Shown one piece after another: positions 5,822 through 56,898 of a stretch of DNA of 64,000 nt; position 1 is the first letter of the stretch; the number at the start of each line of letters is the position of its first letter. A program made the position numbers and the translations under genes. This stretch comes from a virus: IMG/VR virus record IMGVR_UViG_3300037011_000200, positions 1 to 64,000 of that record, one strand, 5' to 3'. Below the pieces are notes generated by a model, which ran no database searches, was not told the origin of the DNA, and saw only the letters and a program-made list of their open reading frames with translations.

Positions 5822-6431
5822 GATTGCAAGACTTATCAGTGAAGGTGTTCCTGCACGATTCAAAATCGATGGAACGCAAGAGGAAAAAGATCTTAAGCTT
5901 GGTGATAACGAGAAAGGTTTACATTTATATCCTCTCATAAATAGCATTGACGAGAATGCTATTATTGAGGGCGCGTCATTTGATTTGCGTCTTGGAGGAG
6001 TCTTCTTGCATGAACCAACCAAGTATCGGCGTCTGTTAATCAATTCCCGCAACACTGGGAAGTATGATCCACTCAAGACAAGAACAATTGGAGACGTTTC
6101 AGATTTATATATTCTGGAGCCCGAAAGGTACTATTTGGCATCAACAATCGAGTCTGTTAACTTACCTCTTTATCTGTTAGGAAGATTGGTTTCACGAACA
6201 ACATGCTTTCGTTCAGGTCTTCAGGTTTTGTGTTCTGATATTAACCCCAATTACTTTGGTACTCTAACAATAGGGCTAAAGAACCTTACAAACACTTCTT
6301 TAATTATTCAGAGAGGATTTCGTATCGTTTCAATAGAGTTTTATATCATTCAGGGGAAGAGCAATCCTTACGTTGGTAATTGGCAGGGAGGCAAAGTTTC
6401 GACTGAAGGAGAATTTGATCCATCAAGATGA
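5802..6431 (+). CDS. dcd: dCTP deaminase / dUTPase superfamily protein
   Basis: A 209-residue protein of the trimeric dCTP deaminase-dUTPase fold. Visible signatures are IEGASFDLRLGG, then LGRLVSRTTCFRSGL and DINPNYFGTLTIGLKNL, then IIQRGFRIVSIEF, in the order found in Dcd. The reaction would be dCTP to dUTP (or dUTP to dUMP), feeding dTMP synthesis with the dCMP deaminase at 12605 and the ThyA-like gene at 19925. The ATG at 5802 has GGAGGA just upstream and lies inside the end of the previous gene. Whether it is a mono- or bifunctional enzyme cannot be told by eye. Confidence 0.8.
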   Translation: MLLGGHEIARLISEGVPARFKIDGTQEEKDLKLGDNEKGLHLYPLINSIDENAIIEGASFDLRLGGVFLHEPTKYRRLLINSRNTGKYDPLKTRTIGDVSDLYILEPERYYLASTIESVNLPLYLLGRLVSRTTCFRSGLQVLCSDINPNYFGTLTIGLKNLTNTSLIIQRGFRIVSIEFYIIQGKSNPYVGNWQGGKVSTEGEFDPSR

Positions 6432-16570: not shown

Positions 16571-17287
16571 ATGAATGTGAAATTGGCTTTCGAGGCTCCA
16601 CTAAAGAGTTTAGAGTTGTCTTCAAAGTTTGGTGACTATTTGTTTGCGATTGCTCTCTGGTTAAAGCATTCTGAGTATTCTGACTTTGTTTTAGGTCGTC
16701 CTGAAAGTATGGAATTGTATCTTGACAATGGTTGTTATGAACAGGGAGCCTCAATTGATATTAGAGAGTATGTTGGTTACATTGAAGGGTTACAACCTGA
16801 CGTCGCGGTTGTTCCAGATGTATATTTAAACTATCCTGATACAATTCGTATGGCTGGAGTTTTCTTTAAGGAACATTTACCTCAGACGACGAAGTATATG
16901 CTTGTTCCTCAAGGTAAGACTATGAGCGAGTGGGTGTTGTGTTATCATAAATTGTTACGAATGTTTCGTCATAGATTTAGTATTGTAGGAATTCCTCGAA
17001 ATATGTTTCCTCACAGGTTACAGTTAGTTCGTCATGTATACAACATTTCGAAAAAAGATATTCATATTCTGGGTTGTGTAGAGCCCAGTGAAATTGCCGG
17101 GATTTTAGCATCGAATGTACCAGTAGTATCTATAGACACTTCATGGCCAGCCCGTTATGTTTTAGGGAAATTAGGAAAAGAGGATCGCATTGATTTTGAA
17201 ACCGATGAGATTGGCTTTCAAGAATTTGATGGTGCTGTGAAGGAATTCTTGAGAAGAATCACACCTGAAAGAGTAAGGGTACGTTGA
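16571..17287 (+). CDS. dpdA: DpdA-like tRNA-guanine transglycosylase-fold protein
   Basis: A 238-residue protein from ATG 16571 (GAGG eight bases upstream; an in-frame ATG at 16532 is less likely). Segments match a shortened TGT fold: ELYLDNGCYEQG, PDVAVVPDVYLNYPDT, KYMLVPQG, FSIVGIPRN and IHILGCVEP, in TGT order. In bacteria and phages DpdA inserts preQ0 into DNA in place of guanine. The nearby QueC (19136), and QueD and FolE2 further on, supply preQ0, which supports this role strongly. Catalytic aspartates probably lie in DNGCYEQG and PDVYLN; I cannot confirm them by eye. Confidence 0.72.
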   Translation: MNVKLAFEAPLKSLELSSKFGDYLFAIALWLKHSEYSDFVLGRPESMELYLDNGCYEQGASIDIREYVGYIEGLQPDVAVVPDVYLNYPDTIRMAGVFFKEHLPQTTKYMLVPQGKTMSEWVLCYHKLLRMFRHRFSIVGIPRNMFPHRLQLVRHVYNISKKDIHILGCVEPSEIAGILASNVPVVSIDTSWPARYVLGKLGKEDRIDFETDEIGFQEFDGAVKEFLRRITPERVRVR

Positions 17288-18555
17288 TGATCTGTGGACA
17301 AGAATTGTTAAAGGTTTTCGAGGTTACGAAGACTTTAGGAACCAACCAAAAGATTGCTCTGTTTTCACAACTTAAGAGTAATCCTATAGTATGTAACATT
17401 TTGGTTTATGGTACTGATATTTATAGGCAGTATCATATACGTGATCTACCTCAAGTCAATTCTCCCTTTGATCATTGTCAATGGGAAACTTTATTTAAAG
17501 CATTAGATACTCTCACACAGAGTAAAGGAGCTTCCAACAAAGACAGAGAAATTTTGTCTGTGATAGCAAGTCCTTGTGAATTCTGTAGAAAGATCGTTCT
17601 TGATGTTTTACGGCATGAATTGCGTATAGGAATGGGAATTAAGAATCTTCGAGAAGCTGGATACAATATTGAATCAAGTGAGCACGTGCAACTCTGTAAA
17701 GAAGATATACTTAAGTTTCAATCCAAAGATTGTTTTCTTGCATCTGATAAACTGAATGGTTTTCGGGTTAAGTTTCATCAAGGAAATAATGGTATTGAGT
17801 TTCTTTCGCGTAAAGGGAAGCCTTACCTAATGTTTAATCAGTTGTTTAGAAAGTATATGATTCCCTCGGGTGTAATTTTTGATGGTGAAATCATTCATAA
17901 ATTAGGCAGGAAGGAAGACTTTGATTTCTTAGCTTCCGTTGCAAAAAGTGAGAAGTCAACTTATGACGATCCTCGTCAGTGTGATGTGAAGGTTGCTGTT
18001 TTTGATTGTCCTTCTCTGGGAGAGGAAAGTTTATTTTATCGTTTGAAGTTTCTTAAGGAGGAGATAAAATTACCTCAGGATGTAATGTATGTTTTACCTC
18101 ATATAGAAGTCAAGCCAACTTCAGAAAGTAACTTTGTTGAAGAAGTACTACGACTCCTTGAGGAGGCAATACCTAAGAGATATGAAGGTATTATAATTAA
18201 GAATCCATTTGTTGAGTATGAGTTAAAGCGATCTCATAGTTGGGTTAAGGTTAAGGAAATGAAGTATTCTGATTTCCCTCTGGCTTTTGATCTTCCTGTC
18301 GTTGGGAAGATAGAGGGAAAGAGGGGTAGTAAGAATGAAGGGAGGTTGGGTTCTCTAGTAGTTGATTTTCAAGGGGTACAAGTTCGAGTGGGTTATGGAT
18401 ATAGTGATCAACAGAGAATTGAGTTTTGGTCTAAGCCTCCCAAGATTATTGAAGTAAGGGCTCAACAGATTACAAAGGACGGTTCACTTCTCTTTCCCGG
18501 TTTTATGAGACCTCGTGATGACGAGAAGGATACAGGAGACTTTCAAAATGTCTGA
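17287..18555 (+). CDS. ATP-dependent DNA ligase
   Basis: Seals nicks in DNA. The adenylation lysine lies in SDKLNGFR (motif I, Lys155), followed by GVIFDGEII (motif III), RYEGIIIKNPF (motif IV) and HSWVKVKEM (motif V); an OB-fold with GKRGSKNEGRLGSLVVDF follows. The 422-residue length fits T4/T7-class and archaeal-type ligases. An N-terminal helical domain of about 140 residues includes ELRIGMGIKNLREAG, as in DNA-binding domains of larger ligases. The ATG at 17287 overlaps the DpdA-like stop. Confidence 0.9.
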   Translation: MICGQELLKVFEVTKTLGTNQKIALFSQLKSNPIVCNILVYGTDIYRQYHIRDLPQVNSPFDHCQWETLFKALDTLTQSKGASNKDREILSVIASPCEFCRKIVLDVLRHELRIGMGIKNLREAGYNIESSEHVQLCKEDILKFQSKDCFLASDKLNGFRVKFHQGNNGIEFLSRKGKPYLMFNQLFRKYMIPSGVIFDGEIIHKLGRKEDFDFLASVAKSEKSTYDDPRQCDVKVAVFDCPSLGEESLFYRLKFLKEEIKLPQDVMYVLPHIEVKPTSESNFVEEVLRLLEEAIPKRYEGIIIKNPFVEYELKRSHSWVKVKEMKYSDFPLAFDLPVVGKIEGKRGSKNEGRLGSLVVDFQGVQVRVGYGYSDQQRIEFWSKPPKIIEVRAQQITKDGSLLFPGFMRPRDDEKDTGDFQNV

Positions 18556-23051: not shown

Positions 23052-24295
23052 TTCACGAAACGTTACGTAGATCTATCCTAAAGATTTTGACTGCTGACTC
23101 TTTACGATTCTGGGGCCTTATTCTGTACAATTTAGAATTTAAAGTGGCGGAAGATGATCCTTTAACTCCTACAATGACTATTTATTATGACCGCGGGTGG
23201 TACTGCCGATATAATCCAGATTTCGTGAATGGAAAAAGTGAAACCGAAATGGTTTATATAGTCATTCATGAATTGGTTCATATGCTTAATGGTCATTGCT
23301 TTAGATGTAGTGAAGAATATGTTTGGTATATTTGGGCTATCGCGATAGATCATGTAGTTAATGTTGCATTAGATCATGATATGGATTGTGGGTATTTGAA
23401 GAGTATCTCAAAACCCCAAGACAGGACGATTTTTGAGGAGATTAAAGATAAAAATTGGACAGCGGAGCAAGTTTATAAATGGTTGGTGGAGAATGCAAAG
23501 GTAATTTTTCTTCCTCCTACTATGGTTGTGGTTGAAGTAGGTGATAAGCATTATCAATTTCCGATAGATATGATTGTATGTAGTGCAACCTTGGAATCAT
23601 TGAAGGCTTTGCGTGATTTAGTTTCTCAGGCTCGGGCTCATATCAATTCAGATAGAAGTAGAGGTTTACTTAGGGGATTCCTTAGAGAATTGTTATCTGA
23701 TCTGATAGATGTGGTGATTCCTCCTGAAGTTATTTTGGAGGATGCAATTAAGAATATGTTGTCAATTTCGGATAACCGAAGTTGGCGCAGTGTAAACAAA
23801 AGATTGTTTGCACATGGCATTCTAGCTCCTGCTGATGATACTGAACTTTTGATGGCAGACGTCGTTTGTTTAGTCGATCATTCTGGGTCAATATCTAAAG
23901 AGGAAGCAAAAGCATTTTCAGGGGCAATAAGAAATTGCGCGCATCTGTTCAAACGTTTACACATCGTCAAACATGATGCTGCAGTTGACAAAGACGGGGG
24001 AGTTACCATCCTAGATAGGGATGAGGTTTATCGATCCGGAACTTTGTTTGAGATGATTGGTCGAGGAGGTACAAGTCATAAAGAACCTTTTGATTATTGT
24101 CAGCAGTTATGCAATCAGGGAGAAGAGATTAGTCTGGTTCTAGTATTTACAGACTGGGCAAGTGATATTCCTGCTATTTGGGATAAGTATACTTGGCACA
24201 CAGAATTTCCTGTTCTCAATATAATTCCTAAAGGTAAAAGTTGGCTTGTCCCTGATAGATTTGGAAAGAAATATGAATTGTTTAAGGGGAAATAA
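23048..24295 (+). CDS. VWA-domain protein with zincin (HExxH) motif
   Basis: A 415-residue protein of the DUF2201 type. IHELVHMLNGH (about residues 73-83) has the HExxH zinc-protease motif. The C-terminal von Willebrand A domain has the MIDAS loop DHSGSIS (about 277) and a later GGTSH that supplies the MIDAS threonine. It overlaps the MoxR-like gene by ATGA. MoxR-VWA pairs act in metal insertion or complex remodelling in bacteria; the phage target is unknown. Confidence 0.78.
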   Translation: MIHETLRRSILKILTADSLRFWGLILYNLEFKVAEDDPLTPTMTIYYDRGWYCRYNPDFVNGKSETEMVYIVIHELVHMLNGHCFRCSEEYVWYIWAIAIDHVVNVALDHDMDCGYLKSISKPQDRTIFEEIKDKNWTAEQVYKWLVENAKVIFLPPTMVVVEVGDKHYQFPIDMIVCSATLESLKALRDLVSQARAHINSDRSRGLLRGFLRELLSDLIDVVIPPEVILEDAIKNMLSISDNRSWRSVNKRLFAHGILAPADDTELLMADVVCLVDHSGSISKEEAKAFSGAIRNCAHLFKRLHIVKHDAAVDKDGGVTILDRDEVYRSGTLFEMIGRGGTSHKEPFDYCQQLCNQGEEISLVLVFTDWASDIPAIWDKYTWHTEFPVLNIIPKGKSWLVPDRFGKKYELFKGK

Positions 24296-26934
24296 TGAGT
24301 GATCTTGTTCGAATATATGAGCCAATTATCAGTAGACTAGGAAAGTATTTATCTGCAAAACATTACTCTAGTGTGGATGAAATCGCGCATGCTTTGCGAT
24401 GGATGTATAATGATCATCTCCCCACAAAACAGCCTGTGATGGCTTTGTTGGGAGAAGCTCCCTCAGATGATGAATTCCAATTAGGATTTCCCTTTGTAGG
24501 TCCTGCAGGAGTAGTTCTTGAGGCTGGCTTAGAGTTTTCTAATTTCCCTCGTGATAACTGTTTTATCACAAACGTTTTTCCTTTTGAAAAGCCAGATGAG
24601 TACAGATGGAAAGTAGGGGATTCTGATGTTGTTTCGTCATATATAAGAGATAAACTAAAAGACTTTCCTGTAATTACCTGTTTAGGTAAACCCGCGGTTC
24701 GAATATATTCAGATTCTCAAGAAAGTATTATTGACGCTAGTGGTAGCTGCTTTGAAGTTAATGGGCAGAAAATTATACCCTCAATTCATCCAGCATACGC
24801 GTTGAAGGCTTTTATTTCTGATACAGGGGGTGACGAAAGCGTTTTTTGGTATTTAGTTCTCGCACTGCGAAACGCTAAGGGTATATTAAATGGTGAAGAT
24901 GTTTTCGAATCTACAACAAATCATAAGGCAGGTTTAATCCTTGATAAGAATGATATGATTTCATGGTTTGGGTCTGTTCCTGATAAAGCTTTTGTTTCTC
25001 TAGACTATGAAGCAACACATACTAATCCTTATTTATCCTCGTTGCCTTTATGTGGTGGTTTGAGTTATGATGGTGTGAATAGCGTTTCGATGGCATTCAA
25101 TCCATGGTTTCCTGATTCAAACATTTCGTTTTCTGACTTCTTAAAGGTAGTTGCGGAGTGTAATCATTTACAGTTTATAATGCACAATCTCTTGTATGAT
25201 TATTCTCTTATGTACCGCTTTGGATATCGAGGGAATCCTCCTGCTGCAGACACGATGTATTTAGCTCACCTTGGATTCGAGTTCATGCCTAAAAATCTCA
25301 AATTCCTTTCGTCTTTCTTTTGTAAGATTAAACCTTATTCATTTTCATTCAAGAATTTGGAGCCTTTCATACGTAAAGGGCCTGAACTTTATGAGGATTA
25401 CAAGTATTGGTTAATTCGTCTTTTGAAATATAATGGTGTTGATGCTATAGCAACACGTCTTTTACTTGATGCGATTCCACGTTTCTTAGGTTTAGATTGG
25501 CCTCGTGTTCAGAAGTTGTATAATGAATATATGCATCGATTGTTATTGAAGTTAAGGAAAGTTCAAGAGAATGGAATGATTTTGAATCTCAGTGTGAGAG
25601 AGGAAATTCATGATCAATTAAAGAGTGAGATGTCTCAGTCTGAGCATGGTTTCAAATCATATATGCCTGGTGTTGACAATCTAAGATCTTCTGATCAGGT
25701 AGCTGATGCGTTCAAAGGGATTCTAGAAGATCAGTATCCGAGTTTAATTAGAAAGACTGAGAAGGGAAATCTTTCATTAACGGCGGGAGTGCTTAAAGCT
25801 CTTGCTGAGCAAGGAATTCAGCCTGCAGATCAGTTATTACATTATAGGAAGACATGTAAGCTTTTATCAACTTATATTGATAGTTATCCTGAGTATCTTG
25901 ATTCAGAAGGTTTGATTCACACTCAATTTGCATTAACTAAAACGTCTCGCTTGCGTTCTTCAGATCCTGCCCTTCAGACTCTTCCACGACAATCCGCTGT
26001 TTTGCAATTGTTTACTGCAGATGTTGGGATACCTCCTTATGAACATGTTCTTGTAAAGGGTGATTATTCTGGAGCTGAAGCTCGAGAGTTAGCTTATTTC
26101 TGTGGTATTCAAGAGTTATTAGACCCTACTGTTGATATTCATGTTCTTACGGCTACAATATTTTTTGAAATTTCTAAAGAGCAAGTGACGCCGGAGAAAA
26201 GGCAAACAACTAAAAACTTGACATTCGGTGTTATTTATGGTGCGTCTGCTCCTCGGGTAGCTGTGCTTGTATTTGGAAGTGCAAGTCGTGAGAATATATC
26301 TAAAGCTCGTGATTTGATAGAAGCTTATTTTAAGAGGTTTTATCAGATTCCACAATTTATGCGTAATAGGGAGAATGATATCGCACGACTTGGATATGTT
26401 GAGACACCAATGGGTCTCCGACGTCATTTCCCTGTAGAGTGTATGATATTCCAAATTACTTTAGATGAAAAGCGAATGGTTGGTGCATTAGGTAGACGAT
26501 TTGGTAATAGAATGTACTCAAAGGCAAAACGTGAAGGATATAATTGTTTCCCTCAGACTGGAGTTGCGTATACGACAAATGTTTCCTTGTGTAACCTAGA
26601 TGACGCCTTTGAGGCGAAGGAGTGGAATGATAGACCTAAACCTACTGTCAACTTACAAATACATGACGCGCTGATATCAAGAATGCATCAGTCAGTTTTT
26701 ATTGATGCTTTTGAGATAAAGAAGAATGAAATGTTAAGACCAATTATAGGGGACTTGGTCATCCCCGTAGATTTTTCGATAGGGTGGGATTTGCGTAATC
26801 AGGTAAAGATTATTTCAGCTGAAGAAAGTGTTCAACCTATTGATTGGGATAAGATTTTAGGCCGTTTAAGAGATTCCAAGAGAACAGATCTTTATGACTT
26901 TGCATTACATGCAAAGTCTTTCAAGGAGGTTTAG
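24295..26934 (+). CDS. DNA polymerase I-family replicative polymerase fused to a uracil-DNA glycosylase-like domain
   Basis: An 879-residue three-part enzyme. Residues 45-190 match family 4 uracil-DNA glycosylase: GEAPSDDEFQLGFPFVGPAG (53-72) and IPSIHPAYAL (161-170). Residues about 230-400 are a 3'-5' exonuclease with LDYEAT (motif I), MHNLLYDYS (II) and YNGVDAIATRL (III), so proofreading looks intact. The polymerase follows: motif A GDYSGAEARELA (about 590), motif B RQTTKNLTFGVIYGAS (about 640), motif C IHDALISRM (about 789). A similar N-terminal domain is known in SPO1 DNA polymerase. TAATG overlap with the previous gene. Confidence 0.9.
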   Translation: MSDLVRIYEPIISRLGKYLSAKHYSSVDEIAHALRWMYNDHLPTKQPVMALLGEAPSDDEFQLGFPFVGPAGVVLEAGLEFSNFPRDNCFITNVFPFEKPDEYRWKVGDSDVVSSYIRDKLKDFPVITCLGKPAVRIYSDSQESIIDASGSCFEVNGQKIIPSIHPAYALKAFISDTGGDESVFWYLVLALRNAKGILNGEDVFESTTNHKAGLILDKNDMISWFGSVPDKAFVSLDYEATHTNPYLSSLPLCGGLSYDGVNSVSMAFNPWFPDSNISFSDFLKVVAECNHLQFIMHNLLYDYSLMYRFGYRGNPPAADTMYLAHLGFEFMPKNLKFLSSFFCKIKPYSFSFKNLEPFIRKGPELYEDYKYWLIRLLKYNGVDAIATRLLLDAIPRFLGLDWPRVQKLYNEYMHRLLLKLRKVQENGMILNLSVREEIHDQLKSEMSQSEHGFKSYMPGVDNLRSSDQVADAFKGILEDQYPSLIRKTEKGNLSLTAGVLKALAEQGIQPADQLLHYRKTCKLLSTYIDSYPEYLDSEGLIHTQFALTKTSRLRSSDPALQTLPRQSAVLQLFTADVGIPPYEHVLVKGDYSGAEARELAYFCGIQELLDPTVDIHVLTATIFFEISKEQVTPEKRQTTKNLTFGVIYGASAPRVAVLVFGSASRENISKARDLIEAYFKRFYQIPQFMRNRENDIARLGYVETPMGLRRHFPVECMIFQITLDEKRMVGALGRRFGNRMYSKAKREGYNCFPQTGVAYTTNVSLCNLDDAFEAKEWNDRPKPTVNLQIHDALISRMHQSVFIDAFEIKKNEMLRPIIGDLVIPVDFSIGWDLRNQVKIISAEESVQPIDWDKILGRLRDSKRTDLYDFALHAKSFKEV

Positions 26935-30337: not shown

Positions 30338-30901
30338 ATGTTTACTCAAGTCGAAAGAGAACCTCTAATTCAAATATCAACTTTCCAGAATCAGGGGTTA
30401 TACTTTCCTTTTGTTCGGGTTGATAATACTTTACACTTTACATGTGAATGTTTAAATTCAATTCCTTGTGATGAAATGCTAAAGATGTCTTTATTCCCTT
30501 TAAATGCTTTAGTTAATCCTGTATTTCGAGATCGATTCCAGAGTGAATTTGAACTTGTTATGCTTGAAACATGGGATAGCAATCATTCTATAGTAATTCC
30601 GATCTTTGGAGAAATTCCTCAGTATATAGAGCTATTTTATTTATGGGAATTATTCTTGATGCATGTTGAGGATGTATTTTCCATCCCTTCAACACTTGAT
30701 CTGCTTAAGTTCAAGGTGAAGCTTGAGGAGTCAGAAGAGGCTGCGCCATTAATTTTACAATCGTTTCCCTCGAAGAAGAAATTTGTTTGTTGGCTTCCTT
30801 TGGTAGATTATGCTTTACGTGGGTTGAATGGAGTTCTGTCTACTTGTGAGTGTGGTAGGACGTTTGGAATAATTCAAAAGATGTTATTGCATTACAGATG
30901 A
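30338..30901 (+). CDS. protein of unknown function
   Basis: ATG at 30338 follows the nuclease stop; a TTG at 30311 in the same frame is an alternative. The 187-residue acidic product has no motif I recognise and ends with CECGRTFGIIQKM. Its stop overlaps the gyrase start. Confidence 0.55.
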   Translation: MFTQVEREPLIQISTFQNQGLYFPFVRVDNTLHFTCECLNSIPCDEMLKMSLFPLNALVNPVFRDRFQSEFELVMLETWDSNHSIVIPIFGEIPQYIELFYLWELFLMHVEDVFSIPSTLDLLKFKVKLEESEEAAPLILQSFPSKKKFVCWLPLVDYALRGLNGVLSTCECGRTFGIIQKMLLHYR

Positions 30902-33900
30902 AATACGACGATAAATCAATACAGGTTTTCAAGGGCGTTGAAGCTGTTCGCAAACGTCCTATGATGTACATTACTAGTCTTGACGCTAGTGGTATTCGTC
31001 ATATGTTTCGCGAGATTTTGACAAATGCAGTAGATGAACATTTAGCAGGATATGGTAATAAATTAATAGTCAAGAAGGTTGGTTCTCAGATAATAGTACG
31101 AGATTTTGGTAGAGGCGTCCCATTCGGAATTCATCCCGAAGAGCAGATTAATACCCTCACATTAGTCGCAACTCAATTACATGCAGGCGGAAAGTTCGAT
31201 GAGAACCTCTATAAAATTTCTGCGGGATTACACGGTGTGGGGTTGTCGGTTGTGAATGCTTTATCTTCTTCCCTTATAATTAAATCGTTCCGTGATGGGA
31301 AGAGTGCACATCAATTCTTTAAGAAAGGTATTCCTGATTCTGATGTTGTGCTTGGAAGTACTTCAGAGGAAAATGGAACCCTTGTTGTATATACTCCTGA
31401 TAATGAAATCTTTAATACGATAGATATATCTGTTGATTGGCTTGTTGAAGACTTATTTTTCATCTCCTGTTTGAACTCGTTGCATATTGTAGCAGATCTC
31501 GACGGGCAAGATTTAGAGTTAAAAGATAGATCACCTTGTTCGTTAATTGAGTCAAAAGATTTGCTTCATGAAGTTATTGAGATTCCTAATGCTACGGCTG
31601 ATAATAAGGTTTATGTGCTTTTTGCGTTTTCATTATCGTATAATCCTAAAGTGTTTTGTTTCGTCAATAATGTTCCAGTGCAGAGGGGTAATTTTTTATC
31701 GTCATTTTATGATTGCTTTGCGAAGCAGTTGAATGAATCTGGGATGGGTTTTGAATCAGGTGATTTGCAGGAGTCTATTAGTTTGGTATTATCTATTCGA
31801 GCTCCTGTAAGTGTAATTCATTTCAAAGGGCAATCTAAAGAGGTTGCTGATTTAAAGTATGATAAGATCCGCCCATTATATGAATACCTTTTTGATAGAG
31901 TGTGGGAAGCTCGAGGGTTCAAGGCACTCCTTACAAAATATTATAAACCCTTTCTGACAGCTGTTCAACAGAGAAGAGCGAAATCGAAAGATTTAAAGAA
32001 TGCTTTGAAAGAGCTTGGTGATCAAAAGACTACTACTATTATTCTTCCTGGTAAGCTTGCTGACTGTCAAGATCAAGAGGGATATGGAGAACTGTATATA
32101 GTAGAAGGAGAGAGCGTTAGTTATGATACTATGATTCCTTTTATTGATAAGAAGGGAGTTGAAAGATTTTTACGTATTTGTGATATTAATCCTGAAGATA
32201 TAGAAAGCGTTCGAAGTTTTAATCTTCATTCTGGTAAATATGAGATCAAACGAGTTATTGGTGTTATTCGTCATTTATATAATAAGAAGTATATTTTTAG
32301 AGTTAAGGTAAAAGGGGGTTTTTGGTTTGATATTACAGAAGATAATCAGAGTATTTATGTATATAGAGATTCTTCTTTACATGAGGTTGGGCTTTCAGAT
32401 ATCAAGATAGGAGATTTGCTTGTTTCTCCAATACAAGAGGAGTTTAATATAATATCTAGTCCAATCAATGTAATTTCAGTTTTAGTTAGAGTTGTTGGGG
32501 AATCTCGAACTCAGAAGATTAGCAACAAGTTTATTCAGTTAGATTATCAAGATTTTGATTTTGGTGTAGAAGGGCTCATTTGTAGTTTAAAAGACGTATT
32601 TTATTGTTATGGAATGGATAGATCTACAATTTCAAGATGGACTAATATCTCTTATAATGCTTTGGAAGGGTTTGATCGTAAAAGGTATTCAATTAGTTTA
32701 TTCCATTTTGGGAAGGTCAAAAAATTTATTCAGGACTTTAATGAGAAGGATTTTTTTATCAAGTTACCTTTGACAGAAGAAAATGTTAAATATTATTCAG
32801 GCAAAAGTAGTTTTCAATTTGTTATTCAAAGAGGTTCAGGGGGCTTAGGGGATCATTTTCTTAGTCCTTTACCTCTTCAATATAAAATGTCTGTAGACTT
32901 AGCTTTTATTATAGGGCAGTATATTGGAGATGGCTATCATCGTATGCCTTGCACTCCTAAAGCACAAGTCGCTTTTTGTATTGGAGAAGATAAACATCTG
33001 ATTAGTGATCAGTTAAGATTGTGTTCAGAACGTCTTTTTAAGTCTCACGGTACGATCACGGAATCAAAACCTGCTAATAAATGTTTTCAACTAGGTGTTC
33101 TTGAACTGAGATTGATTTTATATGCATTAGGATTGACTCATGAGATTAAATCATCAGATAAATTTATTCCTCAGTGCTTCTTTTCGGAGAGTAAGGAAGT
33201 TGTCGAAAGTCTTTTAAAAGGATTATACTTAAGTGGTGGTTATTTAACTACTGATACAGATTATTTTAAGTTAGGTTTCGAGACTTCATCTAGAAGATTG
33301 GCTTTTGAATTATGTAGGTTGTTATTTTTATATTTTGGTATTATTCCAGTATTTCAAAGTAAACCCTCAAAAAGATATATTATCCAAGGTATTAGTGGTA
33401 TAACTAAAGAGGTTTTTTGTGTTACCATTAATAAATATAACGATCAAATACGGTTGAAGTTTATATGCAAATTATTTGAGAGTTTCAATTCTGATAAAAA
33501 TATATCTGATCGGCCGCAATATTTTTGTCAAGGAGATTTTAGGTATATTCCAGTTGTTAAGATTGAGAGAGTTCCTTACAATAATCCATATGTTTACGAT
33601 TTAAGTATTAAGGATAATGAGAATTTTCATGTTGGAGCAATCCCTTTATTAGTTCATAATAGTGCTTCAGGTACTGCAAAGCAGGCTCGTGACCGTCGAT
33701 TCCAGGCAATATTACCAATCCGAGGAAAAACTCTAAACACTTTAAAAGCAACACTTTCTAAAACAGTTGAGAGTGATGTGATTAAAGATATCTTCGCTGC
33801 GGTTGGCGTTGATATCTCGGGAAAGCAGATTACGATTAGACCTCGCTATTCGAAGATCATCATTGCCAGTGATGCCGACAGTGTTAGTGCTGAAACAAAA

Positions 33901-35811
33901 ATTCCTTTTATTAATAAAGATGGTTTTATTCGATTTGATCGTATTGATTCTGTGGTATTGGATAAGATTCATTCAGTTCTATCATTGAACGTAAATTCTA
34001 GAGAGAGTGAAAATAAAAAGGTTCTCAGGATCATTAGTCACAAATATAATAAAAAGAAGATGTATAGAATCACGACGAAGGGCTATTCTGAAGATGTAAC
34101 TAAAGACCATATGGTTTATACCTTTAATTGTTTAACTGATGAGATTTGTCGGAAAGGCCCTCTTGAAATTAATACCAAACGTGATTTCTTAATTATTAGT
34201 AACTCACTACCTGTTGTCAATAGAGAAATCACTTTAGATTTAAGAGAATCCCTTATTGAGGTACAGAAGAGCGAGAATAGCCTCTTCATAAGAGTCCTTG
34301 CTAAAGATTTCGATTGGAAAGTTGATGGCACTGTTAAATTAACAAAAGGAAACATTCAATTTACTAGAGAGCTTTCTAGATATAAGGTTGAGCGTCTTTT
34401 AGGATTTTCGAAGAATATGCTGCAAACATATGATGAGGGCAAAGGAAGAATTCCTTTAGATGTTTTTCAGAGAATTCGAGAGATTGTTCCTGTCGATCTC
34501 AGTACTGTTTATGTATATGTAAAGTATTCAAAAGAGAATTTTCATTATTTAGATATTCTAGGTAGTTGTATTATTGATTGCAAAAGGAATATTATTGATT
34601 GGAATGTTACATTAGATAGTGAAATAGCTTATCTAGTTGGTCTATATATTGGTGATGGATCATGGGGTACTGGTCCTGCGTATGCAATTGAGTTCGCGAC
34701 TGGATTAAACTTGTATGAAGACTTTATTAGGAATTGTTCTAAAAAGTTGGGATATCATTTTAAAGAATATTTTAGAATCGAGAATTGTGCAAAGGCAGTT
34801 ATCTGTTCTATTCAGTTTCAGGCTATTCTCTACGAGCTAGGATTACGGAAAAGTGTTAATCATTCGGTTAAATTTATTCCAGAGATTTTCTTTTCGGCAA
34901 CAGAGTCTACTCGAAAAGCTTTATTGTTGGGGCTATATCATAGTGATGGCAGTTTTTATTATGCCTTAGGTTATTCTCCTTGCCTTGATTTTCGTACTAC
35001 ATCAGAGAGTTTAAGAGATGGATTAACATTCTTATTACGTCAGTTTGGGGTATTTCCATCATTGCGTACTCGTCCTCCAAACAAGAAATTGAAAGAGCAG
35101 TGGGGCCGTTCTACTATTATTGACAGGAAACCTATTTTTGTTGTTACATGTAATCAGCAGCGTGACATTGTTAGTTTAGACTTTATTTGTAGGATGTTTA
35201 ACTTAGAGAATCTATCTAAATATAAAACACCTGTTGTTGATTTTATGGCACGTACTAGAGATTTTATTCCACTAACTGAAACGGTGTCTGCGGTTAGAAT
35301 TCGGAGGATCGAAGAAGTAAGTTATGCTTATGATAGAGTTTACGACTTGGAAGTTGAAGAGCATCATAATTTCGGAATTGGCATGACAGGAATGATACTC
35401 CGAAATAGTGACGGAAAACATATAACTTGCTTACTTTTAACATTCTTTTTGCAATGGATGAGACCTTTGATTGAGCAAGGGTATATTTATATTGCTAGAT
35501 CTCCTCTCTATCGAATTGTAGAAAAGACAAAGATTCAGTTTGCATATTCTGATATTGAGTTATCTAAAATACAGAAATCTCCAGGCGCGATTATTACTCG
35601 CTTTAAAGGGTTAGGTGAATTGAATCCAAATGAATTGGCTAAGGCAATATTTGATCCTTTAACTAGGCATTTGAGTTGTGTTTCGTTAAATGATCTTACG
35701 CAGGCAGCTACAGTTACTTATTGTTTAATGGGGCCTGATCGTGAGATGCGTTGGGATTTCATAAATGAATTTATGTCACAGATTGATTATGAATGGAAAG
35801 GGGAAGTATAA
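30898..35811 (+). CDS. gyrB: DNA gyrase/topoisomerase IV subunit B with two inteins
   Basis: A 1637-residue precursor. The GHKL ATPase is intact: EILTNAVDEH, RDFGRGVPF and SAGLHGVGLSVVNALS. The Toprim domain is split twice. The first intein (residues 406-921) sits after YIVEGE, before SASGTAKQARDRRFQAILP. The second (995-1503) sits after IIIASDAD, before SDGKHITCLLLTFF. Removing both gives about 612 residues, the normal length of a short GyrB/ParE, ending in an intact Toprim and C-terminal tail. No subunit A is in the window. Both inserts lie in metal- and DNA-contact motifs. Confidence 0.92.
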   Translation: MKYDDKSIQVFKGVEAVRKRPMMYITSLDASGIRHMFREILTNAVDEHLAGYGNKLIVKKVGSQIIVRDFGRGVPFGIHPEEQINTLTLVATQLHAGGKFDENLYKISAGLHGVGLSVVNALSSSLIIKSFRDGKSAHQFFKKGIPDSDVVLGSTSEENGTLVVYTPDNEIFNTIDISVDWLVEDLFFISCLNSLHIVADLDGQDLELKDRSPCSLIESKDLLHEVIEIPNATADNKVYVLFAFSLSYNPKVFCFVNNVPVQRGNFLSSFYDCFAKQLNESGMGFESGDLQESISLVLSIRAPVSVIHFKGQSKEVADLKYDKIRPLYEYLFDRVWEARGFKALLTKYYKPFLTAVQQRRAKSKDLKNALKELGDQKTTTIILPGKLADCQDQEGYGELYIVEGESVSYDTMIPFIDKKGVERFLRICDINPEDIESVRSFNLHSGKYEIKRVIGVIRHLYNKKYIFRVKVKGGFWFDITEDNQSIYVYRDSSLHEVGLSDIKIGDLLVSPIQEEFNIISSPINVISVLVRVVGESRTQKISNKFIQLDYQDFDFGVEGLICSLKDVFYCYGMDRSTISRWTNISYNALEGFDRKRYSISLFHFGKVKKFIQDFNEKDFFIKLPLTEENVKYYSGKSSFQFVIQRGSGGLGDHFLSPLPLQYKMSVDLAFIIGQYIGDGYHRMPCTPKAQVAFCIGEDKHLISDQLRLCSERLFKSHGTITESKPANKCFQLGVLELRLILYALGLTHEIKSSDKFIPQCFFSESKEVVESLLKGLYLSGGYLTTDTDYFKLGFETSSRRLAFELCRLLFLYFGIIPVFQSKPSKRYIIQGISGITKEVFCVTINKYNDQIRLKFICKLFESFNSDKNISDRPQYFCQGDFRYIPVVKIERVPYNNPYVYDLSIKDNENFHVGAIPLLVHNSASGTAKQARDRRFQAILPIRGKTLNTLKATLSKTVESDVIKDIFAAVGVDISGKQITIRPRYSKIIIASDADSVSAETKIPFINKDGFIRFDRIDSVVLDKIHSVLSLNVNSRESENKKVLRIISHKYNKKKMYRITTKGYSEDVTKDHMVYTFNCLTDEICRKGPLEINTKRDFLIISNSLPVVNREITLDLRESLIEVQKSENSLFIRVLAKDFDWKVDGTVKLTKGNIQFTRELSRYKVERLLGFSKNMLQTYDEGKGRIPLDVFQRIREIVPVDLSTVYVYVKYSKENFHYLDILGSCIIDCKRNIIDWNVTLDSEIAYLVGLYIGDGSWGTGPAYAIEFATGLNLYEDFIRNCSKKLGYHFKEYFRIENCAKAVICSIQFQAILYELGLRKSVNHSVKFIPEIFFSATESTRKALLLGLYHSDGSFYYALGYSPCLDFRTTSESLRDGLTFLLRQFGVFPSLRTRPPNKKLKEQWGRSTIIDRKPIFVVTCNQQRDIVSLDFICRMFNLENLSKYKTPVVDFMARTRDFIPLTETVSAVRIRRIEEVSYAYDRVYDLEVEEHHNFGIGMTGMILRNSDGKHITCLLLTFFLQWMRPLIEQGYIYIARSPLYRIVEKTKIQFAYSDIELSKIQKSPGAIITRFKGLGELNPNELAKAIFDPLTRHLSCVSLNDLTQAATVTYCLMGPDREMRWDFINEFMSQIDYEWKGEV
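32113..33660 (+). other. intein 1 in GyrB (516 aa, LAGLIDADG homing endonuclease)
   Basis: The first residue is Ser (SVSYDTMIPFIDKKG), the last is Asn in LLVHN, and the next extein residue is Ser, the splicing requirements. Two LAGLIDADG-like blocks lie inside: AFIIGQYIGDGY (about intein residue 263) and LLKGLYLSGGYL (about 366), the second having Gly in place of the acidic residue. That may weaken the endonuclease. Confidence 0.88.
33880..35406 (+). other. intein 2 in GyrB (509 aa, LAGLIDADG homing endonuclease)
   Basis: Starts SVSAETKIPFINKDG and ends MILRN before Ser. LAGLIDADG-like blocks are AYLVGLYIGDGS (about intein residue 249) and LLLGLYHSDGSF (about 348), both with the acidic residue. 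The N-terminus is clearly related to intein 1 and the insertion is in the next Toprim acidic motif. Confidence 0.9.
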
Positions 35812-45809: not shown

Positions 45810-47963
45810 TTGACTCTCAATGATGAGGATTTTTATTTTCGTGTTGTCCTCAACTGTGATTTCTATCAGGAATTTCACCGTGATTGGTTTCGCTTTGGAG
45901 CTCAAAATTCAAGAACCCTCCTTTTAGGTCCTCGTGATTCTTTAAAGTGTGCTCACCCGTTAACTCTTATCCCTTCTGATGATTCTGTCTCCTATCTTTT
46001 TTCTTTGAAACGTAATCAAGAGATTTCTTCAGTCTTTAAGAGCTTATCTTCACGTGTTCAGGTTAGAGGTGAACGAGATGTCAAAAGAGTTTTTCGTGTA
46101 AAGGTTGGGCCTCCTTTTGACTTTTGGGTCTATCTTTCCCCTGAACATAAAGTTTTTTGTTATGATGTGGTTCAGGATTCCTTTGACGTTGTTGAGACGC
46201 AAAAGTTAAGTAAAACATCTCATCTTGTATTCCTCGCTCGACCCCCTATATTCAATCCTTTATTATCTGTTAAATCAAAAGAAAAGTTGAAGCTTATTCT
46301 TGCGAACACATTTTCGTCGAAGAAGATTCTAGATGAGAACGTTCTAAAGATGAATACCAAATCTTTTTCTAGGCTTCTTGCTGTTATCGACGATCATTAT
46401 AAGCATGATGAATTAAAAGAAGCTCATTCATTTCTTTATAATAAATTACAAGTAATGAAATTTTATCATGGTCTTATTAAACCAGATTCAACTTCCGCGT
46501 TAACCCTTATGAAGGGGTCTTGTCTAAGAAATCGATCAAAGCTTGATCGGGATAAGATTGCCTTCTTGGTGGATGAACAGACAGATTTTGCACCTTCACC
46601 TGTTCAAGTTAATTCGGATTTTTGCTGCTTTGCATGTATTGAGGAGATAAAGGAAGTTCTTCTAGATGGGCCTGTTACATTTTTTGATTGTAATGTCACC
46701 AATTCACATTATATTGCAAATGGATTTGTAACTCATAATTCGACCTTTCATACTGTAGGCCGAGTCCTTCATGATGCTTTAGAGAACCCTGAGAAACGTT
46801 ATGCTATTATTTCAGCAACGAGTAAGTTAGCTGCGGGTCAAGTTTCAAGAATTCAGCGTATATGTCAAAGTAGTCCTGTTGTTAGGTATTGTTTTAGTGA
46901 TGTAATTAATCCTAGAGAGATTCGTCGTTGGTCGGGTGAATCATTAGAATTTATTCGTAAGTCGATATATCCCGAACCTACTATTTGGGCTTTAGGTGTT
47001 GGAACGGATTTTACGGGTTTTCACTTTGAGGAGGCTTACTTCGACGATTTAGTTACAATACGACATAGGAAATCTGCCACTTTACGGACACAGACATGGG
47101 ATTGGTTTCGTTTAACGGCTATCCCTGCATTAGACAAGTTGAGAGGTCGTGGTCACGTTATTGGTACTCGATATCATTGGGATGATATGTATGGAAAATT
47201 GTATGAGATCGCTCAATCATCTGGTGGGTGGAAAATTTCAAGAACTCCTGCCCTAGATGAGGAATTACTTTCACAGGATATTGCAAGGTCTTTTTGGCCT
47301 GAGAGATTTCCGGAAGAGGATTTACTTCAAATAAGATCAGATTATGGTGAAGATGTTTTTCAGTTGCAGTATCAATGCGCAGCAGGCATTGTATTAGCCG
47401 AACAAAATAAACAGTATATAGCTAAACTCCGAGACTCAATAGTACCCATGTCAATAAAAGATAAGGTGGTTGATATTGTGTTAGGTGTCGACTTAGCCTC
47501 TAGAGGAAGCGGTACATTACCTGATGCGAAAAAAGCTTCCTTCAGTATAAGTGCTACTGGAAAGCATATGGAGACAGGTAAGTTTATTACTCTTGAGGTC
47601 ATTAAGATCAAACACCCCACTCTCAATGACAAGAAAGAGTGGGTTAAAACTATGCATAATAGATATAATCCGTTGCTTGTTGCGGTTGAAGCTCATTCAC
47701 AGCAGTCGGATTTTTTAGAATATTTAGCCGAGGATGATTTTCCATATTCAGTTAAACCCGTTAAGAGTTTTGAGTCTAAAGAAGCCCGATTTGATTATGT
47801 ATTAAACCTCATTGGTTCTGGATCTTTGTTTTTTGTGGAGGGAATGTGTCAACCTCTATTAGAAGAAATGTATATATTTCCAGAGACTACAGGAGACGCT
47901 ATTGATTCTGAGTTTTACTCGTTAAGAGCTTCTTATCGTGAGCCTAATATAAGATTCATGTAA
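45810..47963 (+). CDS. terL: terminase large subunit with intein in the Walker A loop
   Basis: A packaging ATPase-nuclease. The shown start is TTG 45810; homologous-looking sequence continues upstream (see the 45603-45809 entry). RTLLLGPRDSLK is split from STFHTVGRVLHDA by an intein (residues 47-310), and splicing gives GPRDSLKST, a Walker A of phage terminases. A Walker B-like AYFDDLV follows. The nuclease half has GVDLASRG, VAVEAHSQQSD and a late GDAIDSEFYSL, giving the metal-binding acidic residues. The extein is about 453 residues from TTG. Adjacent portal and TerS support it. Confidence 0.88.
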   Translation: MTLNDEDFYFRVVLNCDFYQEFHRDWFRFGAQNSRTLLLGPRDSLKCAHPLTLIPSDDSVSYLFSLKRNQEISSVFKSLSSRVQVRGERDVKRVFRVKVGPPFDFWVYLSPEHKVFCYDVVQDSFDVVETQKLSKTSHLVFLARPPIFNPLLSVKSKEKLKLILANTFSSKKILDENVLKMNTKSFSRLLAVIDDHYKHDELKEAHSFLYNKLQVMKFYHGLIKPDSTSALTLMKGSCLRNRSKLDRDKIAFLVDEQTDFAPSPVQVNSDFCCFACIEEIKEVLLDGPVTFFDCNVTNSHYIANGFVTHNSTFHTVGRVLHDALENPEKRYAIISATSKLAAGQVSRIQRICQSSPVVRYCFSDVINPREIRRWSGESLEFIRKSIYPEPTIWALGVGTDFTGFHFEEAYFDDLVTIRHRKSATLRTQTWDWFRLTAIPALDKLRGRGHVIGTRYHWDDMYGKLYEIAQSSGGWKISRTPALDEELLSQDIARSFWPERFPEEDLLQIRSDYGEDVFQLQYQCAAGIVLAEQNKQYIAKLRDSIVPMSIKDKVVDIVLGVDLASRGSGTLPDAKKASFSISATGKHMETGKFITLEVIKIKHPTLNDKKEWVKTMHNRYNPLLVAVEAHSQQSDFLEYLAEDDFPYSVKPVKSFESKEARFDYVLNLIGSGSLFFVEGMCQPLLEEMYIFPETTGDAIDSEFYSLRASYREPNIRFM
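45948..46739 (+). other. intein in TerL (264 aa)
   Basis: Starts with Cys (CAHPLTLIPSDD), ends FVTHN, and is followed by Ser. Block B-like VYLSPEHKVFCYD and block F-like VTFFDCNVTNSHYIANG are present. No LAGLIDADG motif is seen; the middle (about 100 residues) is helical and lysine-rich. It is larger than a minimal intein, so the middle may be a decayed or different endonuclease. Confidence 0.85.
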
Positions 47964-53368: not shown

Positions 53369-54365
53369 ATTGAAGGTATGTTTCTTATCCGCAGATACTG
53401 GAGGATCTGGGTATTATCGTACAAAGTTGCCTGCGAAGTATTTACAACAGAGTCGATATGATGATCTTGAAGTTATGCACTATGATGATTTCAGGTTGAT
53501 TAAAGATCCCTTCGATGTTTTAATAATACAACGTCAATGGAGAGATCATATTCTTGTTTGGTGTCTACAGTTAAAAAAGCAGGGTACGAGAATCATTTTT
53601 GAATTAGATGACAATTTATGGTCTATTCCATCAACTATAGATTCTCATAAAATATATCAACTTGACACGCTACATAAAATAGAAAACTTTATTCGTATGA
53701 GTAATGCTGTAATTACCACTTCTGATCCTCTTAGAGTAATCTTATCGCAATTCAATTCAAATGTATGTGTTATTCCTAATTTTGTAGAGATTCCTGAAAT
53801 CATTCCGCAGTTGCCGAAGCGTAGAATAAAAATCGGGTTTTGTGGAAGTGTATCTCATGTTGAGCATCTTAAGATTTTAACTCCTATTTTAATTCGATTG
53901 AATGCGATCTGCCCCAAGATTGAATTAATTGTTATGGGATTACCGTGCCCAGAATTGAGTTTGTACGCAACAACGATTTTACCGGCTTCTCCTGAGTCTT
54001 TTATCAATGCATTGGCTTCTCTTGAGCTTGATATCGGTCTCGCATATGTATTTGACAATATTTTCGATAAATGTAGAAGTTGGTTGAAGTTTTTAGAGTA
54101 TTCTATCACGGGTGCTGTGACGGTGGCTCCGAATCTTGAACCATATTCAAATATTATTACAAATGGTGAAAATGGTATTTTAATAAATAAGGATTCAGAT
54201 TGGCTCTCCACTTTAACTGAGCTTGTGAAAAGTGGAGATTACAAATCGATGGCAAGAGTCGCTTATCAAGAAACTTTGAATTCTTGGTTAATACAAAATA
54301 ATGTTTATCGGTGGTATAATGTTATTCAGGAGACTGTAGATGGACAAAGAGAACAATGTGCGTGA
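53361..54365 (+). CDS. glycosyltransferase (GT4-like)
   Basis: A 334-residue GT-B protein with LSADTGGSGYYRTKLP at the start, FELDDNLWSIP, and the donor half KIGFCGSVSHVEHL, SLELDIGLAYVFDN and KFLEYSITGAVTVAPNLEPY. It overlaps the fusion and the next gene. It presumably extends the same glycan. Confidence 0.78.
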   Translation: MRKLKVCFLSADTGGSGYYRTKLPAKYLQQSRYDDLEVMHYDDFRLIKDPFDVLIIQRQWRDHILVWCLQLKKQGTRIIFELDDNLWSIPSTIDSHKIYQLDTLHKIENFIRMSNAVITTSDPLRVILSQFNSNVCVIPNFVEIPEIIPQLPKRRIKIGFCGSVSHVEHLKILTPILIRLNAICPKIELIVMGLPCPELSLYATTILPASPESFINALASLELDIGLAYVFDNIFDKCRSWLKFLEYSITGAVTVAPNLEPYSNIITNGENGILINKDSDWLSTLTELVKSGDYKSMARVAYQETLNSWLIQNNVYRWYNVIQETVDGQREQCA

Positions 54366-56898
54366 AGCTGACGCGCAAGCTAAAACCAATGAACTTTTAG
54401 GTCCTGGACACTTCTTCTGGGTTCCAAAGACATCAGTTTCTATAGTTAGTTATCGAGAGGCTGAAGTATATTCAGTCACACAACTTATGGAATATGTTGA
54501 TCTTCTTGAAAGAAAGTATCATACATTTCCTGAGATAGCTATTCAAAAGAAGTATGATGGTGATAATATCGAGTTTCACCGGGATACTCATGGGAAGTTT
54601 ACAATTTTTACGGATAATGGATCTACGGTTACGAATCGTGTACCTGGCCTCATTAAGCTTTCAGAGAAACTTTTTTCTGATAAGTCATATATTCTAATTG
54701 GTGAATTGGAAGGATGGTCTCATGGTGTTCATTCTGGTCGTGAACAAGTCTCAGGATATTTGAATGCACAAACTCCTCCTAATGATTCTACGTTGTGTAT
54801 AAGCTTTTTCGATTGTGTGTGGTTTGATGGAAAGGATTTGCATGGTGAGCCGTATAATGTGAGATATGGGCTTCTCGAGAAAGAGTTCAAGATTTCTCAA
54901 TCACTCATAACCAATTTGCAACCCGGTTTCAATCTTGCGCCAACCTTCATAGTTAAAGCGAAAGCTGCTTTACAGAGTGCAGTGCAACAGGTAGTACGAC
55001 CAAGAGAAAGCGAGGGCGCCGTTCTTAAGATTTGGAATGGGTTTAAATTTTCCCTAAACAAGAGTGCCAATGAGATGATTAAGTTTAAGAAATGGGCAGA
55101 AGCTCATTTTGTTGTATTACAGAAACGTCAAATTGCAGGGTCAAAACAAACGTTTCAGTATTGGATAGGTATTAAGGTTTTGGTGTCTGAGCGTGATACT
55201 GTTGTTCAGAATAAGGTTGAGGAATATGGTGGACAGAATTACTTGCGTTGTGCCAAGACATTTAACACGAATGTCCAAGCAAAGGTAGGTGATATAATTA
55301 CAGTTAGATTTAGCAATGTTTTTGTATATCATGAACAGGATAAAATCTATTTTGGTATTTATGCGCCCAATGTTTATGAGAATAGAACTGTGCAACAGCA
55401 TGATGAGGAACCTGATACTGTTTCTACATTGTTAAGGATAGGGGAAGAGTCTGGACTGATTGTGCAGAAAGGTATAGGAGTTTTCATTTCTAAGGCTACT
55501 GATGCTTTCATGCAATATCCTCCAGAAGCAAAACCTTGCAAGTATGTTATGCAAGAACATTTCAGAGGGAAGACTGCTCATATTGATTTCCGTATCCAGT
55601 CTATTTCAGATACTTTGATTGGTTATACTATCATGAATCAGGTTGAGGGAAAGATTAAGACCCCAATTCTAAATGTAGCACAAGGGCGTAAAGTTTTAAA
55701 ACAGTCTGATAATTGGAAGTTTGATGCTATCAAAGGTATTTTTCAACGACGTCGAATTGCAGGTGGAGAGATTCGATTTGCCAGTCTTCAGGTTGCACTC
55801 AAACAATCGGAGCCAGAAAATTGGCTTTCAGTAGAGGGCGTTTCCGAAGTTGGTGGGACGGGAGCCACTTCAAAATGGCCTGGAGTATTTGTCATTGCAT
55901 CGCAAGGACAGTTAGCATATGGCTATCGAGAAGTTTACTTTCACGAGTATTTTGTGTATAATGATAAATGGCCTGATGGGGGTCTCCGAATGTTGTTTAG
56001 ACTTCTCTCAGGTCCTGAATTACAGCAAGCATCAATTCCGATATCGAATTTGTTAGAACCTTTCACTGATGAACCTGACAAGTTTACTGTTGAGAATAAC
56101 GAAATTATTTTTGATAATGGAACGATTTCTATGCATGACTTCGAAGTAGATCGTCTTGGCAAATCTCTGCATAAGATACTTCCTCCTTCGGAGGAGCCTG
56201 GGCGTGAAATGCCTTTTGTTTGGCTTCTAGTTAAACCAAAAACGAATGAACCATATATATTATCTGCGCGGGCAAGGCTGAAAAAGAAATATTCTCCTGT
56301 AGGAGTATCGACTTTACCTGCTTCGGTCAAGAAACAAATCCCTGCTTCCTTGAGATATTGGGAAGCATCCTCTTCACAGAAGATGCAAGCTATGCTTGAT
56401 GAGCTGAGAGATAAAATTAAAGGACATGAAGTCGAGTTGGACTATAGTGATAAGGTTGTTTTCAAACGTGCAAGTAGCTTTGTTTTGGAAAAGGCAGCTG
56501 AGTCAAGTTATATCTTGAAGCGACGCTGGTGGCGGGGGCCCATAGTTATCAGATTGGGATCATCTGCGGAATTTTATGATTTGTATTTCCAAAAAGATCA
56601 GGAATGGGATCAGTTTATTTTAACGCAGAATCCTGTTAACTATGATTCATTCGCAGGATGGTTACGAATTAATATTACCCAAGATGAAGTTAATTTTGAG
56701 GGAACTTTGCCCCCTGGTCATGAGCTCAATCCAAATAAAAAGTTAGCAGCCGAGACGAAGATTGTTGGATCAGGTACTTTTAGTTTGAATGAGATATCCC
56801 GTGATGTTTGGCAATTAGAATTTAAAGATGGAACTTTGAAGGATAGATCTTTTACAGCGACGCGTGATGCTGGTATATGGAAGTTTAGTTTGGGTTGA
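54340..56898 (+). CDS. ATP-dependent ligase plus LigD phosphoesterase-like fusion
   Basis: An 852-residue protein. The first ~330 residues resemble an ATP-dependent ligase: QKKYDGDNIEF (motif I, Lys71), ILIGELEGWSHG (III), RESEGAVLKIW (IV) and NEMIKFKKW (V). Around residue 400 a LigD 3'-phosphoesterase-like segment follows (YVMQEHFRGKTAHIDFRIQS, the H-x-D-x-R site). The final ~350 residues are unknown. A ligase in the head module, separate from that at 17287, might repair or circularise virion DNA. AGGAGA precedes the ATG. Confidence 0.65.
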   Translation: MDKENNVREADAQAKTNELLGPGHFFWVPKTSVSIVSYREAEVYSVTQLMEYVDLLERKYHTFPEIAIQKKYDGDNIEFHRDTHGKFTIFTDNGSTVTNRVPGLIKLSEKLFSDKSYILIGELEGWSHGVHSGREQVSGYLNAQTPPNDSTLCISFFDCVWFDGKDLHGEPYNVRYGLLEKEFKISQSLITNLQPGFNLAPTFIVKAKAALQSAVQQVVRPRESEGAVLKIWNGFKFSLNKSANEMIKFKKWAEAHFVVLQKRQIAGSKQTFQYWIGIKVLVSERDTVVQNKVEEYGGQNYLRCAKTFNTNVQAKVGDIITVRFSNVFVYHEQDKIYFGIYAPNVYENRTVQQHDEEPDTVSTLLRIGEESGLIVQKGIGVFISKATDAFMQYPPEAKPCKYVMQEHFRGKTAHIDFRIQSISDTLIGYTIMNQVEGKIKTPILNVAQGRKVLKQSDNWKFDAIKGIFQRRRIAGGEIRFASLQVALKQSEPENWLSVEGVSEVGGTGATSKWPGVFVIASQGQLAYGYREVYFHEYFVYNDKWPDGGLRMLFRLLSGPELQQASIPISNLLEPFTDEPDKFTVENNEIIFDNGTISMHDFEVDRLGKSLHKILPPSEEPGREMPFVWLLVKPKTNEPYILSARARLKKKYSPVGVSTLPASVKKQIPASLRYWEASSSQKMQAMLDELRDKIKGHEVELDYSDKVVFKRASSFVLEKAAESSYILKRRWWRGPIVIRLGSSAEFYDLYFQKDQEWDQFILTQNPVNYDSFAGWLRINITQDEVNFEGTLPPGHELNPNKKLAAETKIVGSGTFSLNEISRDVWQLEFKDGTLKDRSFTATRDAGIWKFSLG

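Follow-up and report, generated by a model that had tools for sequence, protein, structure and literature searches.

A phage gene for a GyrB-type topoisomerase subunit is occupied by two class 1 LAGLIDADG inteins that start with Ser, lie at neighboring catalytic motifs of the Toprim domain and appear, from their sequences, to derive from a single ancestor. We assign this explanation, taken as a whole, a probability of roughly 0.87.

Two inteins in a phage GyrB-type subunit

The gene lies in a 64-kb window (the whole stretch of DNA that was analysed) of a viral record 98,541 bases long (98.5 kb, G000). It forms one uninterrupted ORF of 1,637 codons in which three extein pieces alternate with two inserts, each of the five pieces showing a codon-position bias of the coding type.

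30898 to 35811, + strand: gyrB/parE-type topoisomerase gene, open frame for a 1,637-aa precursor
30898 to 32112, 33661 to 33879 and 35407 to 35811, + strand: extein pieces of this gene
32113 to 33660, + strand: intein 1 (int1), 516 aa, residues 406-921, Ser1 to Asn516, Ser at +1 (junctions; PF14890, 46.6 bits alone)
33880 to 35406, + strand: intein 2 (int2), 509 aa, residues 995-1503, Ser1 to Asn509, Ser at +1 (junctions; PF14890, 46.9 bits, and LAGLIDADG_3, E 1.9e-10, alone)

Each insert was scanned alone, and both scores for Pfam Intein_splicing (PF14890) exceed the cut-off of 35.8 bits, with E values of 4e-12 for int1 and 3e-12 for int2. For the LAGLIDADG_3 profile (PF14528), int2 gives a clear match (E 2e-10) and int1 a weak one (E 0.03), and the intein ends described by TIGR01445 and TIGR01443 were matched. 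These profile scores rule out a chance origin of the motifs in the inserts. Both inserts open with SVS and close with Asn, and the next extein residue is Ser in each case. The junctions of int1 are formed by YIVEGE, which ends at residue 405, and SASGTAKQ, which starts at residue 922; those of int2 by IIIASDAD, which ends at residue 994, and SDGKHI, which starts at residue 1504. Profiles and junctions together confirm, at the level of sequence, that int1 and int2 are full-length Ser1 inteins in a GyrB-type subunit, most likely class 1 inteins of the LAGLIDADG type. AlphaFold2 runs on a two-row alignment gave no usable models (mean pLDDT 28.7 and 31.8 for the two inteins).

Removing both inserts yields a 612-aa product with the GHKL ATPase, the transducer, and the Toprim and C-terminal part including the catalytic acids. 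This product matches the gyrB model PRK05644 at 1.7e-140, remains under both the gyrB and the parE equivalog cut-offs, and is judged to be a type IIA topoisomerase subunit of the GyrB/ParE class, which the PRK05644 score does not divide into gyrase and topoisomerase IV. GyrB/ParE structures in the PDB were matched in one piece; with phmmer, ParE (4juo) gave a single alignment over residues 2-598 at 337.7 bits, whereas the unspliced precursor aligned in three disjoint stretches, at 279 bits.

The metal-binding and catalytic residues of the Toprim domain are E424 and the D498-x-D500-x-D502 (DxDxD) motif in E. coli GyrB numbering, and all four acids are retained in the extein. The int1 site corresponds to D426^S427, two residues past E424, and the int2 site to D500^V501, within the DxDxD motif; the two sites are 74 codons apart, and the spliced product aligns to E. 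coli GyrB with zero gaps at either join. The original prediction had described two inteins in one GyrB-type gene, with Ser at the start, Asn at the end and Ser behind, sited exactly between the four flanking motifs and at catalytic acidic motifs of Toprim, and all of this stands; the two checks whose failure, by its own terms, would have refuted it, an intein profile search of both inserts and a continuous alignment of the spliced product to GyrB/ParE, came out in its favor.

The phage and its other genes

The window also encodes a portal protein, a terminase large subunit, a head protease and a major head protein, together with a UDG-fused family A polymerase, a DnaB-like helicase and an SbcCD-like pair. 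This gene content marks the record as a tailed phage, in agreement with the earlier description of the gene as a phage one. No match to the A subunit (GyrA/ParC, PF00521) occurs in the whole 98.5-kb record, which is possibly a fragment, and the partner subunit could be supplied by the host. A further intein was found in the terminase large subunit, at the K^S position of a Walker A-like GPRDSLK^ST motif.

45948 to 46739: third intein, 264 aa, from Cys1 to a terminal HN, Ser at +1, in the terminase large subunit, no LAGLIDADG match

The UDG-fused polymerase (24295-26934) showed no detectable intein; its homologue on a 217-kb viral contig (L006:2206-7989, 1,927 aa) has apparently three. Besides this full polymerase, a 400-aa protein at 4619-5821 gives a partial family A polymerase match. 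An 852-aa protein at 54340-56898, among the portal and head genes, has its ATP-dependent DNA ligase domain confined to the region near the N-terminus, and a second ligase gene is present at 17284-18555.

Splicing and endonuclease residues

Residues were called from an alignment of int1, int2 and seven relatives.

32332 to 32346, + strand: int1 block B, ITEDN, Thr kept and His replaced (alignment with the seven relatives and int2)
32908 to 32934, + strand: int1 LAGLIDADG motif 1, IIGQYIGDG, Asp kept (alignment)
33214 to 33240, + strand: int1 LAGLIDADG motif 2, LKGLYLSGG, catalytic Asp lost (alignment)
33646 to 33660, + strand: int1 C-terminus, LLVHN, penultimate His kept (junctions, alignment)
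34096 to 34110, + strand: int2 block B, VTKDH, Thr and His kept (alignment)
34633 to 34659, + strand: int2 LAGLIDADG motif 1, LVGLYIGDG (alignment)
34924 to 34950, + strand: int2 LAGLIDADG motif 2, LLGLYHSDG, Asp kept (alignment)
35392 to 35406, + strand: int2 C-terminus, MILRN, penultimate His replaced by Arg (junctions, alignment)

LAGLIDADG pairs had been predicted in both inserts. This holds for int2, which has a catalytic acid in each of its two dodecapeptide motifs, but only in part for int1, which has the acid in the first motif alone. The int2 endonuclease is thus most likely live and that of int1 dead. Because both LAGLIDADG acids are kept, int2 is predicted to home and is probably mobile; int1, because one catalytic Asp is lost, is predicted, and probable, to be immobile.

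The splicing residues lost are different ones in each intein. The block B His, which is essential in many inteins, is replaced in int1, whose -1 residue is Glu and not Gly, and the penultimate His is replaced in int2. Natural inteins without the block B His are rare exceptions that still splice (PMC7765530, PMC6333167), and its loss can be made good, a bulky -1 residue being one means (PMC6333167). In mycobacteriophages, inteins frequently do without a penultimate His and splice nonetheless; one of them, with a penultimate Gly, splices fully and becomes slower once His is introduced (PMC5050341). Those class 1 inteins resemble int2 in being phage-borne with a penultimate residue other than His, but they carry Gly, Lys or Ser in place of Arg, all start with Cys and none is listed in gyrB (PMC5050341), whereas int1 and int2 are Ser1 inteins in gyrB. 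Both inteins most likely still splice, although by their residues they are non-canonical. A degenerate block F in int1 (no His before NF) was considered as a further defect and dropped, since the relatives inserted at M496^T497 (see below) likewise have DENF and the HHNF of int2 is the exception.

Kinship of the two inteins

BLASTP aligns int1 with int2 end to end (30% identity, E 2e-48, 165 bits), whereas no other sampled intein scores above 66 bits against either one. In trees of 16, 18 and 19 inteins, int1 and int2 stand on one side of a branch with support of 99-100/99. End branches are long in these trees, which makes a long-branch effect conceivable; the BLAST score is independent of the tree. 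We infer that int1 and int2 are paralogues with one ancestor, each being the other's nearest sampled relative. Similar DNA around the two sites would favor copying within the gene, but such likeness has weak support: of the 20 bases lying up to 10 positions from the site, 10 agree, a level that 1.8% of gene positions attain, and over wider flanks the similarity is not above expectation.

No second member of the int1 or int2 allele was found in the searches made. No close relative of either was present in 50,697 phage records, nor of int2, the only query used there, in 72,556 plasmids. Peptide patterns for relatives, run on IMG/VR, returned a single, distant locus, which lies in a DNA polymerase fused to UDG. 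When 84,980 species genomes were scanned with int2, the only matches were distant inteins, located in PolII, SNF2 and PolB genes.

Other inteins in GyrB

The survey of GyrB comprised 146 cyanobacterial and 197 Halobacteriota genomes, with 30 genes read, picked mostly for long open frames. Complete inteins in these cellular GyrBs occupy two positions only, G430^S431 and M496^T497, each offset by four residues from a phage site, the former downstream of int1 and the latter upstream of int2.

Inteins at M496^T497 (IM^TDADVDG) were found in Halobacteriota (L090-L093), in cyanobacteria (L070-L072) and on a 340-kb viral contig (L105). They have 535-569 aa and share with the phage pair a LAGLIDADG endonuclease and Ser1-Val2, the latter in all members, the DxD Toprim motif with int2, and a block F ending in ENF with int1. 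They differ in their site, with Thr at +1 where int2 has Ser, and in a clear XRE-type HTH (Pfam HTH_3), of which none was detected in int1 or int2, and their identity to the pair is 20-26%. A profile of the pair matches a profile of this family over its full length (E 6.6e-21, 99.3% probability), but the PolII, SNF2, PolB and G430^S431 GyrB inteins only partially. By profile comparison, the M496^T497 family of archaeal, cyanobacterial and viral GyrBs is the nearest outside relative found for the pair. The trees do not settle whether it is the sister group, with support of 70/62 for int2 alone, an AU p of 0.395 for int1 alone, and an AU p of 0.253 for pair and family in a later tree. A Ser1 intein related to this family also occurs in a QueC-like protein (L100, ORF 3468-6323 of a 119-kb viral contig).

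The G430^S431 site (SAGG^SAKQ) is occupied in cyanobacteria (L072, L074-L088), archaea (L094-L097) and a virus (L102). We take it to be the published cellular GyrB intein allele, and probably the single 'gyrB' allele of the Halobacteria literature. In Halobacteria, gyrB has been treated as one intein allele (PMC4071816), and 61 intein-containing archaeal GyrBs have been counted in a study whose main text does not give the sites (PMC9348778). These inteins interrupt the same EGDSAGG Toprim motif as int1, but they start with Cys instead of Ser, are mini-inteins or carry an insert with an HNH-like stretch, and resemble int1 only in the C-terminal splicing blocks.

Two GyrBs combine both cellular sites. 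A 1,373-aa cyanobacterial GyrB (L072, genome G125) has inteins of 167 aa at SAGG^SAKQ and 551 aa at M^TDADVDG, and the viral GyrB of L105 (IMGVR_UViG_3300012931_000759, 340 kb) has inteins of 196 aa at SAGG^SAKQ and 535 aa at M^TDSDVDG. As in the phage, both Toprim motifs hold one intein each; here, however, they are of two unrelated types, whereas the phage pair are paralogues. The arrangement had been predicted to be rare. This is borne out only partly, as one of 146 cyanobacterial genomes sampled and one other viral contig have a two-intein GyrB, though at sites four residues away, and "exceptional" needs softening because these two cases turned up. No report of two inteins in one GyrB was found in a literature search that had most subscription journals outside its reach.

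In 2.9 million viral contigs, strict patterns were applied, whose silence is no proof of absence: the one for the int1 site gave three chance matches and no GyrB, and the one for the int2 site gave one find. This is a T4-like topoisomerase II large subunit (L027:2907-4703, - strand) with a Cys1 intein behind D500, of which the frame covers about 90 aa before it breaks off; the gene that follows is a separate one, on the opposite strand. The insertion position is identical to that of int2, but the element is of a different intein type in a fractured-phage-gene layout, int2 being Ser1 and full length. It resembles a split-intein N half; no C half was found. Another viral topoisomerase II large subunit (L104, match at 6351) is cut off some 100 aa into a Cys1 intein that follows SAGG, and probably has the N half of a split intein at the other of the two Toprim sites. 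Intact inteins at D426^S427 and D500^V501 were found nowhere else in the material searched.

Discussion

The mechanism is standard for inteins; what is unusual is the arrangement. The whole 1,637-aa precursor would be translated from the single open frame observed. Each intein would form an ester at its own Ser1, the N-extein would be handed to Ser+1, the terminal Asn would cyclise and the intein would leave, the residues and the conserved extein pointing to a GyrB of 612 aa whose Toprim site is intact. Precursor or half-spliced protein would be inactive as topoisomerase, because both sites adjoin or sit within the metal-binding acids. Intein-free gyrB copies are the probable homing target of int2, at DAD^S, while int1, probably immobile, may be retained because only an exact deletion would restore the gene.

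The residue losses could also mean that splicing has been lost in one of the inteins or in both and that gyrB is decaying or dead, perhaps useless without a visible GyrA. The block B His is gone in int1, the penultimate His in int2, and GyrA is not seen in the 98.5-kb record. Yet 1,637 codons are open, the Toprim acids are kept and the extein aligns over its whole length; phage inteins without a penultimate His do splice (PMC5050341), and loss of the block B His can be compensated (PMC6333167), int1 having Glu and not Gly at -1. We consider this reading improbable. An assembly artefact, a chimeric contig, might be suspected in a lone metagenomic record for which no near relative was found, but one unbroken frame runs across five alternating pieces, exact splice junctions occur twice and every piece has the codon-position bias of coding DNA, which leaves this explanation a very slight chance.

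A more serious contender is that inteins of two long-separated lineages invaded independently, with no copy made within the gene. Identity is only 30%, insertion alleles are usually inherited by site, and L072 and L105 do carry unrelated inteins at the two motifs. Against this, int1 and int2 are by far each other's best match, pair at 100/99 in the trees, and int1 is unrelated to the Cys1 inteins of G430^S431 beyond the last residues; we regard independent invasion as possible but rather unlikely. Under common ancestry, one intein would have been copied between the Toprim sites, or two alleles of one lineage, possibly brought together by recombination, would have met in one gene, in either case probably long ago given the 30% identity. 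The simplest reading is that int2 and the M496^T497 family share a recent target motif and that int1 came from the int2 side, presumably not from the Cys1 inteins of the neighboring G430^S431 site.

Inteins cluster in active sites, and neighboring inteins in one gene normally come from unrelated lineages, as those of L072 and L105 do. Double occupation of GyrB has counterparts in L072 and L105, at the cellular sites; the novelty here lies in the two inteins being paralogues, in two positions not seen before within a heavily invaded domain, and in residue losses that complement each other. The original prediction had not brought out the paralogy, the dead-looking endonuclease of int1 or the loss of a different splicing His in each intein. 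The Toprim domain of GyrB/topoisomerase II emerges as a hot spot with at least four entry positions and several intein types. The pair offers a test case for change of intein target, with one lineage at two sites 74 codons apart and one live-looking beside one dead-looking endonuclease, and a matched pair for the roles of the block B and penultimate His. It is conceivable, although we think it quite doubtful, that copying within the gene to both Toprim motifs has produced a two-step gate, in which two differently tuned inteins, each short of another splicing residue, time or condition the phage topoisomerase; if true, GyrB would be active only once both inteins have left.
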